Translations under genes and position numbers: made by a program
The notes under the pieces: generated by a model
What the model saw: only the letters and a program-made list of their open reading frames with translations
Told to the model about the DNA's origin: nothing
Database searches by the model: none
IMG/VR virus record: IMGVR_UViG_3300024258_000095
Span: 1 to 28,273 of that record
DNA: 28,273 bases
Reading direction: 5' to 3' (one strand)
Source: a virus
Shown: in pieces, positions 1,538 to 24,055 of the stretch
Position numbering within the stretch: the first letter of the stretch is position 1
Layout of the letters: each line of letters starts with the position of its first letter

Positions 1538-1939
1538 TTATTGAATCTGTCCTAACCCAGTACCTTGTGGAGCTTGTTCTTGCACATTTTGAGAGCCAGG
1601 TTGTTGCATAGCTTCTGAAAGTCTTGCTTTTATTTCATCATGTACTCTTGGATCATTCATGATATTTGCTAGCTGATTCTCGTCAAGTTGACCAGATTCT
1701 ATTGCTTCAATTACATACTGATTGTATTCTCTACTTTCTTGTTCTTCCCTCTGCGCTTCATGTTCATTGATAATTCTTGAACGATCTGCTTCTTTTCCTG
1801 CTTGAATTTCATTAATTCTCTGTTGCGCAGTAAGTTCATTGATAATTTGATCAGGATTCTTTGCAGTTCCTTCACCGACTGGTTGCTTCTGTGGTGCTTG
1901 TTGTTGTATTTGACCTAGTCCTTGTTGTTCTTCTAACAT
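1538..1939 (-). CDS. Gln/Glu-rich small protein directly downstream of the portal gene
   Basis: It encodes 133 residues, very rich in Gln, Glu and Asn. The same hexapeptide GLGQIQ occurs near the N-terminus (residues 7-12) and at the extreme C-terminus. A helical stretch in the middle (AQQRINEIQAGKEADRSRII) looks like a coiled coil. Its start codon overlaps the portal stop (TAATG), so translation is coupled to the portal. Small low-complexity proteins in this slot are often head assembly or portal-associated factors in large podovirus-type phages, but the sequence itself gives no function. One copy of the genome-wide octamer AGAGCCAG falls in its coding region (PGSQ codons). Confidence 0.6.
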   Translation of the reverse strand: MLEEQQGLGQIQQQAPQKQPVGEGTAKNPDQIINELTAQQRINEIQAGKEADRSRIINEHEAQREEQESREYNQYVIEAIESGQLDENQLANIMNDPRVHDEIKARLSEAMQQPGSQNVQEQAPQGTGLGQIQ

Positions 1940-4167
1940 TATATAGTTCCTTCTGTGTTGTTTTGAGAGCCAGGGATCAAGTCTCTTTCGTAATCTTTGG
2001 CTAGTGCATCAAATGATTTTTCTTCCATTCTATTTGCATGCTTAGAGATTTCTCTTTCCATATGTCTGCTCTCGTTTATACCATCATGATCTCTAATAAC
2101 ATCATAATCAATCTTATCGCGCTCTGAAAGAAGTTTAGATGCTTGTGCTTCTTTGAGAGATGCTTCTGCAGTCTTCTTGCGAACATCAACTTCATTCTCT
2201 CTACTTCTTGAATATCTTTCAGAAATTCTTGAATCAGCTTCTTGGATTTGTTTTTTAAGCAATTCGTTTTCAAGACGTAAATTATCCATTTGCATTTGTT
2301 CTGCTTGTAACTGAGATTCACTAGGACCTTCTGGCTCAATATTCTCCATTTTCTCGGCCAAGTCAACTTGATTCCATAATCTAGCAATCTTCGCATAATG
2401 TAGGTTTGCAATCTCTGACGGCATATTTGCTGCATTTGTCTGCATGAGAGTCATAATCTTATCAGCAGTTTCGTTGTCTTTTTCTGGAGTAGAAATGTTT
2501 ATTTTTAAATCAAATTCACCCTGTAAATCATCTCGTCTAATTGTTGCAAACTCTTCATTGGTGATTCTTATTACTTGCTCTTCCTCCATAAACTCTTGAT
2601 TCATAGCGATTGTCATGCGCGCTAAATCTACAAACATTGAACTCAATCTTCTCAATATTGAAAGCTCACGCTTGCTTGTTGCATCTAAAGCACTACGAAT
2701 ACCAGTTGCGCTTGCTCCCAAGGCTTGACCAGATATTCCACCTGAAAATGATTTAGTACCTGTAAGTGACTCAGCTTCAGCCTCTTCTCGTTGTAACATA
2801 TTGAATACAGTAGAAGGAACTGGCTCTACGCTTCTTCTATGGATTGATTTTTGAGGATCAAATCCACCTCTGAAGAAAACAGTATTACCCTTGTAGTAAT
2901 TATCTTTTTGAACAGCAGATGGTAGTAATTGCTCATCTATAAATTCTTGTCCAACTGCATGTGTAGAAGTAATATCAAGTGAGGCTCTAAGCAATTTACC
3001 TACAGTTTCTTGATTGTCAATAAGTAGTTCAGCATCTGGCTCTCCGTGTGGGCTATCCATAACAGGCATATAATGAGCCATAGAATAAGGTATTCTGTTG
3101 TGCGAAAAAGGATTCTCTTCCATGCGAACTAGTGTGTTGTTTACCCATGTAGCAACAATAGACACAAGCTCACCAGTGCCATGAATATCCCAATAACCCC
3201 AATATTCAAATGCTCTAAGCTTCTTTCTTGCCTTATCTTTTAATTGAAATGATCGAGAATCATCATTCTCAAAATCTCTATTACCTTCAAATCCTTCATC
3301 AGCATTTAAATTAATATTATCAATATTCTTATAGTGACCGAATTCTTCCTCTATTTCTTCACCATTATCATCAATATATTTTTCAACTTTATATTCATTC
3401 TTTTTTAACTCTGAATAGTTAGTGTCGTAATCATGTATAAGAAATAGTGCAGTTTTAATGTCTCCATTGCATCCAGGATCAAGCATTACATTTTCGCCAT
3501 TACAAACCAACCATTGTGGTTGATTTTTAGTAGTTACTACTTTCTCAACTATAACAGTTTTTTCAGATATAACCACTGGCTCTCCTGATTGAATGATGGC
3601 TTCTGCTTCTGCTTCATTTATTTGACCAGATTGGACCATCGCCATTAAATATTCATAGCTCTGTTCAGGTGTAGCATATATAGGCATTTTCTCTTTTGCT
3701 TTAATCTTCTTCTCTTCAAATTCCCATCCAGCTTTAACAATAACACTACCTTGCTCTACATCACGTCTAACAATATCATTTACTAATTTTGTCTTATTCA
3801 TTAATGTATTCAGCTGATATTCGAAAATAATTTGATTTTGTTTTGCAGCCTCTACATCTTCTGCAGTTCTACCTAGAAATTCAAACAATTTAGATGAAGA
3901 TAGAAATGGTTCTTCTAATGCAGGATATTTCCATTCTTGTTGCTTTCTAACTAATTTTGGTCTAACCTTGCTTTTTCTTTTGCGAGGATCAACCTTGATT
4001 TCTTTCCCGCCTTCTCTATCAGTTTTCCACTTTGATAAGTTAGCAACATGTGTAGAGTGATATGATTCAGCCTCTTTTTGATCTGCTTGTAAATCTTCAA
4101 GAGTTGGCTCTTGTTTCCAAGTAGGTTGCAGCTTTACTGAATTCATATTGCTATTATCTAAAGACAT
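1939..4167 (-). CDS. Portal protein
   Basis: This protein of about 742 residues forms the dodecameric ring at the head vertex through which DNA enters and to which the neck binds. Recognisable features are an N-terminal basic stretch followed by WKYPALEEPFLSS (about residues 75-95), typical of the ~700-770-residue portals of N4-like and related podovirus-type phages, a long central alpha/beta region, and a long Glu/Gln/Arg-rich helical C-terminus (about 600-740) matching the portal stem/barrel. The start is chosen at ATG 4167 (MSLDNSN) because GGAG lies 9 bases upstream; an in-frame ATG at 4182 has no ribosome site. It ends in a TAATG overlap with the next gene. Oddly, it follows the lysis genes and is about 15 kb away from TerL. 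Confidence 0.85.
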   Translation of the reverse strand: MSLDNSNMNSVKLQPTWKQEPTLEDLQADQKEAESYHSTHVANLSKWKTDREGGKEIKVDPRKRKSKVRPKLVRKQQEWKYPALEEPFLSSSKLFEFLGRTAEDVEAAKQNQIIFEYQLNTLMNKTKLVNDIVRRDVEQGSVIVKAGWEFEEKKIKAKEKMPIYATPEQSYEYLMAMVQSGQINEAEAEAIIQSGEPVVISEKTVIVEKVVTTKNQPQWLVCNGENVMLDPGCNGDIKTALFLIHDYDTNYSELKKNEYKVEKYIDDNGEEIEEEFGHYKNIDNINLNADEGFEGNRDFENDDSRSFQLKDKARKKLRAFEYWGYWDIHGTGELVSIVATWVNNTLVRMEENPFSHNRIPYSMAHYMPVMDSPHGEPDAELLIDNQETVGKLLRASLDITSTHAVGQEFIDEQLLPSAVQKDNYYKGNTVFFRGGFDPQKSIHRRSVEPVPSTVFNMLQREEAEAESLTGTKSFSGGISGQALGASATGIRSALDATSKRELSILRRLSSMFVDLARMTIAMNQEFMEEEQVIRITNEEFATIRRDDLQGEFDLKINISTPEKDNETADKIMTLMQTNAANMPSEIANLHYAKIARLWNQVDLAEKMENIEPEGPSESQLQAEQMQMDNLRLENELLKKQIQEADSRISERYSRSRENEVDVRKKTAEASLKEAQASKLLSERDKIDYDVIRDHDGINESRHMEREISKHANRMEEKSFDALAKDYERDLIPGSQNNTEGTI

Positions 4168-4200
4168 ATTCGAAATCTCCATATTAGTTTGTAATATTTA

Positions 4201-19859: not shown

Positions 19860-22610
19860 TTAAACATAAGAATCATAGTCAGAGTCATATAATTCAGCTT
19901 CAATAAAATCGTCATAAGGATTAAATTCATGTTCATTGTATTCAATCTTTTTTACTTCATCTTCTTCTACTGGGCTATACAAATCAAACATAGAAAGCAT
20001 AGCAAGGCAATCAAGAATATCATCGTTTCTGGCTCTACCAATCTTTCTTCCAGTATTTGTTTTACTTACAAATCTAAGCTCATTAAACAATTCAATCATA
20101 AATGGATCTTCAATGCAGTCATCTGGAAATTTAATTTTATGAGTAGAAAATCTAGGCTGCATAACTTGAAATCTCTCATATTTACGCATACCAGTAGCAG
20201 GTCTTATTCCTTCTTTGTTTCCATTTCCATACGACAACAATCTAAAATAATTATCTTCAGCAATCATTTTGTCTTTGATTGTGCTAATAGTTCCACCTTG
20301 TTGTCCACTAACCTCAATACCCACACCAAGCATATTTGTACGATACATTTTAGTTATTCTAAATAGGTTATTAATGAATTCATTCAATAATACTTTTCCA
20401 AACCAAAAATCAACAAGAAGTATATCTTTGTCTTTGTTTATAGCCCAAACCATTATTACACTAAAGTCAGCACTTGCATGATCAGTAGTTGCAGCATCAG
20501 TAGTGACATAGAAGTTATACATACCCTGGTTCTCAAGAACAATATGTCTATTAAAGTAAGTAATATCTCTCTCAGGAATTAATCTATCATCAGCATTTGA
20601 AATCTGCAACATAAGCTCTTGATAAAAATCATCAGGTCTACCAACTGCAATAGCCAGATCAAACTTCTTCTTAACCATCTCAAAAGGGAATCGTTCTTCC
20701 CAGCTTCCCTTAAATGTCTCTTTTGTTGTTGTGCTATCAAAATTTTCAGCAACAGGAAAACATGCTACATCCCATTGACCAGAGCCAGCTGCTTCATATA
20801 TTGGATCATTCTGATTAAATGGAGTACCTAGCCAAATCTGTTTTGACTTTGTTGGATGTATCGCATGTCCAACAGCTTTATATATCGTATCTTTTATCGT
20901 ATCAATTATTGTTGGTGACTTTGCATCAGAATCGGATAATACATCATCCATTACAACAAGATTTGGTCGTTGACCCATCTCTTTAGCCCCACGAACACCA
21001 ACCGATGCTCCATACCCCTTTATAACTGTTTTCTTCCCTGCCCAATTCTGAAACTCAAGACGTATATCTGTAAATTTAACACCAGCAGATTTTGATTTCT
21101 TATATTCATCAAGGCTATTGGTTACATCAACTTCAATATCATTTTCATCAATAACGGATATTCTTCTATTTGGAATAAGCTTCTGCATCATTTCTGATTC
21201 TTGATATCTGTGCTCAATATTTCTTCGTAAATTTTTTACACCATTTTCAATACTATCTGTTACGTATAAAATCAAGCTAACATTACCAAATCCAGGAAGT
21301 ACATTAAAGGCTGCTATATACAAAAATAAAGACTCTGCGAAGATAGTCGTATTATGAGTGACTGTATATCCATTTGTAATATAACTATGGTCTTCAGACT
21401 TAACAGCTATACAATAACCACCATTACTATTATCAATCGGCTCTATAGACACTATACCTTTTGTCATCTTTTTAGTAGGCTTCCATTTAGATGCTTTTCT
21501 ACTTAATTTAAATGGATTCAACTTCATATTTACTATAGTTGTATATTCCATATCATAAGTAGGTTTATCAGGTCTATCATCCTCTCTTATGTAGGAAATT
21601 CCACCTAATGATCTAACCAAGTCTCTAACACCTAGAGCCAGGGATTTATTAGTAGAGTGATATCTGCTACTCCCATTAGATGAAATGCTTCCATCTCCAT
21701 CCATAAGTCCCCTCAGCAAATCTAATCTTTGACTGATAGATGAATACATAAACAAGTCTGGTATCATTTTTTCTTGAGATACCATGTGTCTATAGTTTTT
21801 AAAAAACTTATCGCTTATTAATATTTTATCTCCACTTTCAGAAGTTTTTTCCATTTTGCTTACAGGGTATCCACGGTCATTAATTTCTTTTGATATTTCA
21901 ATCATGTCATCAAGATGACAACTTAATTGTCCACCCTTAAAGTATCCATTTGCTAAAAATATACCAAACACATACGGATCTTCAGGTAAATTTTTATAGC
22001 TAAATTCTATAGGATCAGACAATGGTATTCCAAATTTGTAAGCAATTTTTGGATATCTATTTGATTTTCTATTTTTATTGCACGTCAATCCAGAGGCTAT
22101 AAGTTCATCAGTGGTTAATACAAATTCAGTATTTCTACCTTTCTTTGGAGTTCTTCTGTCTTTCCAAACTATATGTCTGTGCTCATCTCCAACTTCCAAA
22201 ATAGTACCATCAGTCAATGTCATTTTATACATTTTAGGATATTGTTTTTCAGTCTTATAGATGACTTCTGTAGCCTTACCGAATCTATTAACTACTTTAT
22301 CACCCTCTTTTATGTCCTCCATTGTAGTCCATCCATTTGGAGTCAATATTGGAGTATCCGGACTTTCTAATTTTCCAGAACCCCTATGAACTAGGATTAA
22401 ACTTAATGGATTGCTATTAAAAACCTTCTCCATCATTGCAGTATGCATAACAGAACTCTTATTTTCATCTTGGCCATTATTTAATTCTTGCATAAAAGTA
22501 ATAAATTCTAATGATTCAATAGTAGGCTTAAAGTTATCCCAAGAGTAATCTACTTCAGCTAAATAATCTTCAACCTGCTTTTTCTTAATTGGTACAAGGG
22601 TGCTATCCAT
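19860..22610 (-). CDS. terL: Terminase large subunit, interrupted by an intein
   Basis: The DNA-packaging motor ATPase/nuclease. The precursor is 916 residues; without the intein it is about 576, the usual TerL size. The ATP-binding loop is split: HRGSGK (75-80) precedes the intein and TTIFAE follows it, so the spliced Walker A reads HRGSGKTT. Walker B is LVVMDD, and the C-terminal RNase H-like nuclease shows TTDAATTDHASAD and a late NDDILDCLAML acidic cluster. The start at 22610 is chosen because TTGGAA lies six bases upstream; an in-frame ATG at 22622 also exists. It overlaps the previous gene's end. Activity of the motor requires splicing. Confidence 0.92.
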   Translation of the reverse strand: MDSTLVPIKKKQVEDYLAEVDYSWDNFKPTIESLEFITFMQELNNGQDENKSSVMHTAMMEKVFNSNPLSLILVHRGSGKLESPDTPILTPNGWTTMEDIKEGDKVVNRFGKATEVIYKTEKQYPKMYKMTLTDGTILEVGDEHRHIVWKDRRTPKKGRNTEFVLTTDELIASGLTCNKNRKSNRYPKIAYKFGIPLSDPIEFSYKNLPEDPYVFGIFLANGYFKGGQLSCHLDDMIEISKEINDRGYPVSKMEKTSESGDKILISDKFFKNYRHMVSQEKMIPDLFMYSSISQRLDLLRGLMDGDGSISSNGSSRYHSTNKSLALGVRDLVRSLGGISYIREDDRPDKPTYDMEYTTIVNMKLNPFKLSRKASKWKPTKKMTKGIVSIEPIDNSNGGYCIAVKSEDHSYITNGYTVTHNTTIFAESLFLYIAAFNVLPGFGNVSLILYVTDSIENGVKNLRRNIEHRYQESEMMQKLIPNRRISVIDENDIEVDVTNSLDEYKKSKSAGVKFTDIRLEFQNWAGKKTVIKGYGASVGVRGAKEMGQRPNLVVMDDVLSDSDAKSPTIIDTIKDTIYKAVGHAIHPTKSKQIWLGTPFNQNDPIYEAAGSGQWDVACFPVAENFDSTTTKETFKGSWEERFPFEMVKKKFDLAIAVGRPDDFYQELMLQISNADDRLIPERDITYFNRHIVLENQGMYNFYVTTDAATTDHASADFSVIMVWAINKDKDILLVDFWFGKVLLNEFINNLFRITKMYRTNMLGVGIEVSGQQGGTISTIKDKMIAEDNYFRLLSYGNGNKEGIRPATGMRKYERFQVMQPRFSTHKIKFPDDCIEDPFMIELFNELRFVSKTNTGRKIGRARNDDILDCLAMLSMFDLYSPVEEDEVKKIEYNEHEFNPYDDFIEAELYDSDYDSYV
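21351..22370 (-). other. Intein with LAGLIDADG endonuclease, class 3-like, in the TerL Walker A motif
   Basis: A 340-residue insert, Leu81 to Asn420 of the precursor. Block A is ESPDTPILTPNGW; the first residue is Leu, not Cys/Ser/Ala. Block F has Cys400 (GYCIAVKSEDHSYIT) and the end is VTHN followed by Thr, so Thr418 is two before the last Asn. These are two of the three marks of class 3 inteins, in which the block F Cys attacks first. The third mark, a Trp shortly after the block B His, is not in place: GDEHRHIVW has Trp149 five residues after His144. Endonuclease block C is FGIFLANG (Asn where the catalytic Asp is expected); block E is LLRGLMDGDG, intact. Confidence 0.88.
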
Positions 22611-22890
22611 TAAACATTCCAACTAGATGTTTTTTCAGCTCATTACTTTCATATTTCAACACATCTTTAAACATCATAGATTTTGCTATAAATACGTATA
22701 AAGTATCTATAATGTAATGAATGTTTTTACATTCCAAAGAGCCAGTGTGTGGATACACGTCTATAGATATTGGCATCATTCCATTTCTGTTATAACTTGC
22801 TCTTGGACTCATTGGATGATCCTCTCTTACACCGAATACTCTATTCTCAACATACCCATCTTCCCATTCAACCTTTAGAGCCAGGTTCAT
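22603..22890 (-). CDS. Small protein upstream of TerL, unknown function
   Basis: It encodes 95 residues, mixed composition (ALKVEWEDGYVENRVFGVREDHP...), with an N-terminal beta part and a helical C-terminus. Its ATG abuts the previous stop (TAAATG) with GGGAGAT as ribosome site, and it overlaps TerL. It and the next gene upstream are each about 95-99 residues and share a layout (N-terminal strand, 'V..R' segment, helical end) though little sequence identity. A packaging accessory is possible. I do not recognise it. Confidence 0.5.
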   Translation of the reverse strand: MNLALKVEWEDGYVENRVFGVREDHPMSPRASYNRNGMMPISIDVYPHTGSLECKNIHYIIDTLYVFIAKSMMFKDVLKYESNELKKHLVGMFNG

Positions 22891-23190: not shown

Positions 23191-23997
23191 TTATACATCC
23201 TCTGAAATTTTTGCTTCTATAGCCTCATCTTTGGCTCTAACTGGTGCATTGATTGTATCAAATAAGTCTTCACCTTCTTCAATGTTTGCCATCTTAGCTT
23301 TAGCCATTGCAGCAATTGCAGCCTTGTAATCATCTCCAATAGTCCCATGATTAATATTAACATCAACTGTTGATTTTGCTTCTTCTGGCTGTTTAGTTAA
23401 TAATGCTAATTCTTTAGCCGCTAAATGCTCCACCATTGGAGAAACTCTTCCATCACCAGCAGATATACCATTCATTAGTTCAAACTGCTTCTTGACTGCC
23501 TGATGGAAGTATCCTTGATACATTATGTGAGTTGGAATAATCATCATCTTATCAATAGCAACAACTAGCTTTGATTGATTGTACATAGACACAAATGAAC
23601 TTGCATCACGCTTGCCTGATAACAACTCTTCCATTTTTGCAGGGAATACAATCGACCATGCCATATTGTTTGTCATATTTCTTTTAAGATTACAATACTT
23701 TACAGCATTGATTAGATCCAATACATTGACACCTTTGATTGATCCAACTAAGTGAAGGTATGACATTACATCTTCTTCCATTAAGTTCTGTGGCAATCCT
23801 GTATCATTTTCAAGATTGTTTATCATATCTACCATATCATCAGTAACTTTTGCCGCAGTTCCCTTTGGCAAGAATGACATAATTCTTTCTCTTGTCACTC
23901 TTTGAGATTCAGCAGGTACATGTCTAAAATCATCAGGATGAGGATCAGATGCATACGCTACTGTTTTCTTTTTTTTAGTTTTTTTCTTCTCTTCCAT
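23191..23997 (-). CDS. Putative terminase small subunit / DNA-recognition protein
   Basis: It encodes 268 residues from ATG 23997; an in-frame ATG at 24009 lacks a ribosome site, while GGAGA precedes the chosen one. The N-terminus is very basic (EEKKKTKKKKTVAY), the core is all-helical (RERIMSFLPKGTAAKVTDDMVDMINNLENDTGL...), and the C-terminus is acidic. Small terminases are helical oligomers that bind the packaging start site and hand DNA to TerL. The call rests on helical content, a DNA-binding-type tail and position three genes before TerL. Another DNA-binding or structural role is possible. Confidence 0.4.
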   Translation of the reverse strand: MEEKKKTKKKKTVAYASDPHPDDFRHVPAESQRVTRERIMSFLPKGTAAKVTDDMVDMINNLENDTGLPQNLMEEDVMSYLHLVGSIKGVNVLDLINAVKYCNLKRNMTNNMAWSIVFPAKMEELLSGKRDASSFVSMYNQSKLVVAIDKMMIIPTHIMYQGYFHQAVKKQFELMNGISAGDGRVSPMVEHLAAKELALLTKQPEEAKSTVDVNINHGTIGDDYKAAIAAMAKAKMANIEEGEDLFDTINAPVRAKDEAIEAKISEDV

Positions 23998-24055
23998 ATT
24001 ATTCTCCATTAACTTATTGAGCTATTATTGAAGAATAATACCATATTTACATCAA

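Follow-up and report, generated by a model that had tools for sequence, protein, structure and literature searches.

An intein divides the P-loop of an N4-like large terminase

The window analysed here is the whole stretch of 28,273 nucleotides of the IMG/VR virus record IMGVR_UViG_3300024258_000095. Its minus strand contains an open reading frame (22622..19860) of 920 codons from the TTG, or 916 from the likely start ATG at 22610, with no internal stops. The PHROGs profile for the terminase large subunit (TerL) matched the encoded protein with an E value of 6e-76. The C-terminal part of TerL, the C-extein, gave tblastn matches in 474 phage records; among the matches listed, the best were 42-45% identical across no less than 93% of the C-extein and came from Schitoviridae (N4-like) phages wherever taxonomy was given. 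The gene upstream of TerL (24009..23191) matched phrog_2109, which is gp69-like, and occupies the same position as the N4 gp69-like genes in PEV2, while a portal protein gene is located downstream (4182..1939). The host protein is an N4 gp68-type large terminase of the Schitoviridae (N4-like). We also observed approximately 29 extra residues after LIPN in the window TerL (window ~21080-21170; C-extein residues ~62-90), a stretch that is shorter in the TerL of another contig, L002, and absent from the aligned Schitoviridae isolates.

The gene and the insertion are composed of the following features:

19860..22610, minus strand: TerL gene (N4 gp68-like) including the intein; likely start ATG 22610, reading frame opening at TTG 22622
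22371..22388, minus strand: end of the N-extein, first part of Walker A, HRGSGK; (H/F/S)RGxxK-T(T/S) in intein-free relatives
21351..22370, minus strand: class 3-type intein of 340 residues, LESPDT...TVTHN; edges set by 73 intein-free TerLs
21345..21350, minus strand: start of the C-extein, Thr+1 and Thr+2, the remainder of Walker A as defined by intein-free relatives

The insert lies in frame between HRGSGK and TTIF and divides the Walker A motif as HRGSGK^TT, and both intein and LAGLIDADG profiles matched it. A TerL profile was used to collect 80 TerL relatives from viral contigs; some are near-duplicates, and the counts therefore refer to records. Seven of the 80 contained an intein directly before the same Thr, and the remaining 73 showed an unbroken (H/F/S)RGxxK-T(T/S); because these 73 relatives run straight through K-T, both intein junctions are fixed. 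The original prediction had placed an intein in the TerL P-loop, at exactly 22370..21351 and with residues numbered from the ATG. Its coordinates and numbering were borne out by the sequence, and the intein itself by the in-frame insert, the profile matches, an intein at the same site in L002 (59% identical; 58.9%) and the comparison with intein-free TerLs, which confirmed the exact K-T junction in 73 of 80 records. Leu81, His144, Trp149, Cys400 and Thr418 of that numbering are intein positions 1, 64, 69, 320 and 338, respectively, and intein positions are used below. In one further pair of nearly identical TerL proteins, L118 and L110, the intein was present in one and absent from the other, which makes them a good pair for a homing comparison.

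Splicing residues and class assignment

The intein was compared with a survey of 226 distinct inteins of class 3 type, taken from IMG/VR, from annotated phages and from bacteria at one genome per species; as the survey was gathered by similarity to the window intein, it is a non-random sample of class 3. The residues concerned are as follows:

22146..22370, minus strand: N-terminal half of the splicing domain, residues 1-75, blocks A to B; 68% identity to L002, dN 0.23
21351..21482, minus strand: C-terminal half of the splicing domain, residues 297-340, blocks F and G; 74% identity to L002, dN 0.19
22368..22370, minus strand: Leu1, non-nucleophile, codon TTA
22179..22181, minus strand: His64, block B (B:10); His in 226/226
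21411..21413, minus strand: Cys320, block F:4, proposed to act as the first nucleophile, like Cys124 of MchDnaB1 (PMC7664689); Cys in 226/226, a count that partly reflects the choice of the survey
21351..21359, minus strand: Thr338 (G:5), His339 and Asn340 (THN); Thr in 225/226 and Asn in 226/226

With the junction set by the intein-free TerLs, position 1 is Leu and thus lacks a nucleophile, as had been anticipated; the expected class 3-type residues, Cys at F:4 and Thr at G:5 in the THN end, were likewise located by alignment, and His328 is also present. Position 1 is Ala in 151 of the 226 surveyed inteins and Leu in seven; Leu1 is uncommon without being unique. At +1, 160 inteins have Thr and 64 have Ser (together 224/226).

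The signature by which class 3 is recognised consists of Trp at B:12, Cys at F:4 and Thr at G:5 (PMC5050341, PMC7891396). The working definition under which 1701 class 3 inteins were counted does not demand Trp at B:12, and 6.1% of them deviate there (PMC7891396). The window intein has no Cys or other nucleophile at position 1, carries Cys at F:4 and Thr at G:5, and is predicted to adopt a class 3-like HINT fold, and it departs from the strict Trp-Cys-Thr (WCT) signature by His66 at B:12. Its residues place it in class 3 by the working definition (PMC7891396) and outside the strict WCT group.

Three other accounts of the insert were weighed against this assignment. The window is a single uncultured contig, and an assembly or sequencing artefact might be suspected; the chance of this is negligible, as the frame is open and same-site homologues with the same key residues occur in two other records (L002 and L003), whose sequences already contradict such an artefact. 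It is also very improbable that this is a class 1 intein with an overlooked nucleophile. A Ser is found two residues into the insert (Ser3 of LESPDT), but a start at Ser3 would leave Leu-Glu in the P-loop, which is seen in 0 of the 73 intein-free TerLs, and position 3 is Thr in L002; many class 1 inteins, moreover, carry Asp where the window intein has Cys at F:4. Ser3 as a class 1 start was ruled out by the intein-free junctions. A class 2 intein, in which Thr+1 directly attacks the N-junction, would agree with the non-nucleophilic position 1, but the Cys at F:4 and Thr at G:5 are as in class 3 relatives, and we consider class 2 just as improbable as class 1. Class 3 chemistry through Cys320 is by far the best explanation.

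Structural comparison of the predicted precursor

The precursor was modelled with AlphaFold2 from an alignment with 44 relatives, which gave a model with a pLDDT of 88.3 and a pTM of 0.89. VIA-align revealed that the predicted splicing domain is highly similar to the class 3 inteins 6riy (Z-score of 19.8, rmsd of 1.6 Å over 128 residues) and 6bs8 (Z-score of 19.7, rmsd of 1.3 Å over 123 residues). The class 3 structures outscored gp41-1 and the other inteins, the margin being between one and a few Z units; as these differences are small, class cannot be assigned from the fold by itself, and it is the residues that decide it. The best PDB sequence matches were the class 3 DnaB inteins 6rix, 6riy and 6bs8. 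The model of the whole intein matched PI-SceI with a Z-score of 28.1, and the block B strand was predicted to comprise residues 65-69.

Loss of the block B tryptophan

Two residues of block B are of particular concern:

22173..22175, minus strand: His66, B:12, where class 3 has Trp; codon CAT
22164..22166, minus strand: Trp69, B:15, at the strand end; Q, K, L, I or E in the N4-like sisters

B:12 was scored two positions downstream of the block B His; of the 226 surveyed inteins, 211 have Trp there, 12 have Asn and three have His. All 13 N4-like TerL inteins are non-Trp at this position (Asn in 11, His in the window and L002), compared with only 2 of the 213 others. Eleven of the 13 are inserted at K^T, and two (L251 and L279) at the TerL site KGYGAK^TGVRGA. 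In a tree in which 11 of the TerL members were used, the window and L002 grouped at 100 and the Asn clade at 99, and the two groups were joined at an SH-aLRT of 84. Because the tree joins the TerL members, the contrast of 13/13 with 2/213 marks one lineage and not 13 independent events. The simplest reading would be a single loss of Trp in a common ancestor, with the join of the His pair and the Asn clade moderately supported (84). The His (CAT) and Asn (AAT) codons are one base apart. L279 is located on a contig assigned to Burkholderiaceae and belongs to the same Trp-less lineage as L251, at the second TerL site. L203 (His) and L230 (Asn) were the only surveyed inteins outside N4-like TerL without Trp at B:12.

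The original prediction had described a deviating tryptophan, with Trp69 as the moved class 3 Trp and possibly a variant mechanism. The class 3 Trp is indeed absent from B:12, but it is replaced by His66 and not displaced. In the same-site relatives the motif is H-(L/I)-N-x-V or H-(R/K)-H-(I/V)-V, the register is unchanged and nothing is inserted before the B:12 column. A three-residue bulge might nevertheless let Trp69 fold back and fill the B:12 pocket, which would make this a WCT class 3 intein in an altered register; one large MAFFT alignment put Trp69 in the Trp column, and Trp69 is kept in both His-type members. Against this, the same-site relatives and two second-site relatives with H-x-N-x-V have neither extra residues before B:12 nor a Trp, the strand 65-69 is unbroken in the model and should point residues 66 and 69 to opposite faces, and L019 carries Trp at both B:12 and B:15. 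Trp69 was set aside as the class 3 Trp on the basis of register and strand geometry, and a displaced Trp is kept as a rival of low probability because of that one alignment.

Nor is a distinct splicing mechanism needed. In the AceL NrdHF intein, which has Met at B:12, splicing follows the class 3 route and is lost once Trp is put in (PMC7891396); Trp is therefore not essential to the chemistry. The window intein is best described as a lineage-wide Trp-less variant, not a new mechanism. We found that several positions shift with the loss of Trp, namely 52 (mostly Phe in inteins with Trp and Leu in 13/13), 14, 17, 50 and 329, which may reflect a rebuilt core or merely shared ancestry. In the literature consulted, no working example with a polar side chain such as His or Asn in the buried B:12 position is documented, the known splicing substitutes being hydrophobic (Met and smaller hydrophobic residues).

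What appears to be new is that the loss of Trp is fixed in the N4-like TerL intein lineage as sampled, with His or Asn instead. Recognition of class 3 relies on the Trp-Cys-Thr triplet, and a strict WCT search would miss this lineage; with all else kept, its members are natural test cases for the role of the Trp.

Endonuclease domain and apparent movement between TerL lineages

The endonuclease features of the intein are as follows:

21483..21998, minus strand: LAGLIDADG homing endonuclease domain, approximately residues 125-296; Pfam LAGLIDADG_3 E value of 1.7e-8, PI-SceI Z-score of 28.1
21948..21950, minus strand: Asn141, at the catalytic acid position of block C; codon AAT
21693..21695, minus strand: Asp226, catalytic acid of block E, intact; Asp in 224/226

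Both LAGLIDADG motifs are present, block C reading FGIFLANG and block E reading LMDGDG, and only block E retains the catalytic acid; Asn141 is the substitution that had been noted at the block C acid. In the survey, the block C position is Asp in 212 of 226 inteins, Asn in nine, Glu in three, Ala in one and Val in one, and eight of the nine with Asn kept the block E acid. L002 shares the block C Asn, with codon AAC where the window has AAT. The endonuclease domains of the window and L002 are 52% identical, with dN of 0.45-0.47 and dS of about 1.9-2.3; the resulting dN/dS of ~0.2-0.25, which is rough with dS close to saturation, points to purifying selection and not neutral drift. Changes of the catalytic acid were commoner in block C (14/226, mostly to Asn) than in block E (2/226), and the two half-sites may be unequally constrained.

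Between the window and L002, the inteins were 58.9% identical and the TerL C-exteins 50.9%, whereas the order was reversed between L002 and L118 (inteins 34.3%, C-exteins 61.5%). The TerL of L002 is 82-83% identical to the TerL of intein-free L097, and the nearest TerL to that of the window is intein-free L096; a scan with the C-extein alone revealed no contig closer to the window TerL. The tree path between the window and L002 was 0.9 for the intein and about 2.6 for TerL, and for pairs such as L118-L134 it was the intein path that was the longer of the two. This suggests a transfer of the intein between TerL lineages that came later than the origin of the Asn. Vertical descent with several intein losses is a possible alternative, the block C Asn could also have arisen twice, and the long TerL branch of the window is a caveat. 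An AU test (p 0.0001) was rejected as stand-alone proof of horizontal transfer, as intein-free rows were included. When only intein carriers were considered, the TerL and intein trees agreed, and the argument for transfer thus depends on the contrast in path lengths, with the intein path the shorter one in window-L002 and the longer one in pairs such as L118-L134. No local rise in identity that would mark a recent co-conversion tract was found around the site in the empty/occupied pairs L002/L097 and L118/L110.

The endonuclease could be a dead relic left by the change of Asp141 to Asn, a reading that we consider possible but the less probable one. Asn stands at a catalytic acid, and in PhoVMA, acid loss accompanies inactivity, but there both acids are missing (PMC8966425). 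The window intein retains the second acid and the fold, its dN/dS of ~0.2-0.25 was obtained against L002, which has the same Asn, and block C Asn recurs in 9/226 with the block E acid kept in eight of those. The greater identity of the inteins (59%) than of the C-exteins (51%) between the window and L002, each TerL having a closer intein-free neighbour, also speaks against a relic. Selection and apparent mobility together argue that the endonuclease is not simply dead. One working half-site is possible, and nicking or weak cutting by an endonuclease with one of its two catalytic acids is favoured only mildly over full cutting or none. Literature searches on Asp-to-Asn LAGLIDADG nickases and on PI-SceI acid mutants yielded nothing usable. 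That the His branch carries an Asn endonuclease, and that this endonuclease still looks selected, would also be new; if still mobile, this endonuclease is a natural test of one-acid LAGLIDADG homing. We offer a joint proposal as a speculative one, and doubt that both of its parts hold: that the lineage works with a polar His or Asn at the buried B:12 position by means of a rebuilt core (co-varying positions 14, 17, 50, 52 and 329), and that its His branch is spread by a naturally occurring LAGLIDADG nickase, one of whose catalytic centres carries Asn, through homing at a single-strand break.

Proposed splicing route

TerL is essential in such phages. The C-extein is under purifying selection (dN 0.47 and dS 2.1 against L002), the Walker A motif of this essential motor would otherwise be broken, and the splicing halves are the best conserved parts of the intein (68-74%), all of which lends indirect support to splicing. 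By analogy with MchDnaB1, in which His65 and Thr143 assist Cys124 (PMC7664689), Cys320 (F:4), aided by His64 and Thr338, would attack the Lys-Leu bond and hold the N-extein as a thioester. The N-extein would then pass from Cys320 to Thr+1, and Asn340, aided by His339, would cyclise and release the intein. The exteins would ligate as HRGSGK-TT, thereby restoring Walker A; given the insertion between the Walker A Lys and Thr, it is soundly expected that packaging can begin only after splicing. The N4-like TerL intein lineage would thus splice without the class 3 Trp, with Asn or His at B:12. Overall, we consider it probable (about 0.87) that this is a mobile class 3-type LAGLIDADG intein in the P-loop of an N4-like TerL, splicing by the class 3 route and belonging to a Trp-less lineage. 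P-loop inteins using Thr at +1 for splicing could be useful parts in protein engineering.

Comparison with known inteins

To MchDnaB1 (6rix, 6riy) and M. smegmatis DnaBi1 (6bs8), the window intein is similar in its non-nucleophilic position 1, block F Cys, THN end and predicted fold, whereas these two have Trp at B:12, solved chains without an endonuclease and a different host protein. The AceL NrdHF intein (6zgq; PMC7891396) is likewise a class 3 intein without the Trp; in contrast to the window intein, it has a hydrophobic Met at B:12, is split and lacks the two block F/G histidines. The mycobacteriophage TerL1-a inteins also lie between the invariant P-loop Lys and Thr, where K^T insertions are classic, but they belong to another TerL family, and WCT was reported to be highly conserved in the class 3 inteins of that study (PMC5050341).

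The closest parallels are the TerL inteins of the Vibrio N4-like phages JA-1, VCO139 (PMC3670811), 1.245.O, 1.238.A and D456, which share the family, the K^T site, the Cys at F:4, the THN end and the non-Trp B:12. They differ in having Ala1, Asn at B:12 and an intact block C Asp, and their intein identity to the window is ~32-35%. The TerL inteins of JA-1 and VchO139-I were reported in 2013, apparently without a class assignment (PMC3670811), and N4-like TerL phages may be among the 6.1% of class 3 inteins without Trp (PMC7891396).

A second, Cys-starting intein was observed in the TerL nuclease domain (HDDA^C) of L004 (Vibrio phage 1.245.O, 2252-5980) and also of L005, where it breaks off and is followed by an HNH-like reading frame and then a separate open reading frame with the C-part of the intein and the end of TerL. 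This arrangement resembles a naturally split intein whose two halves are separated by a free-standing endonuclease gene.
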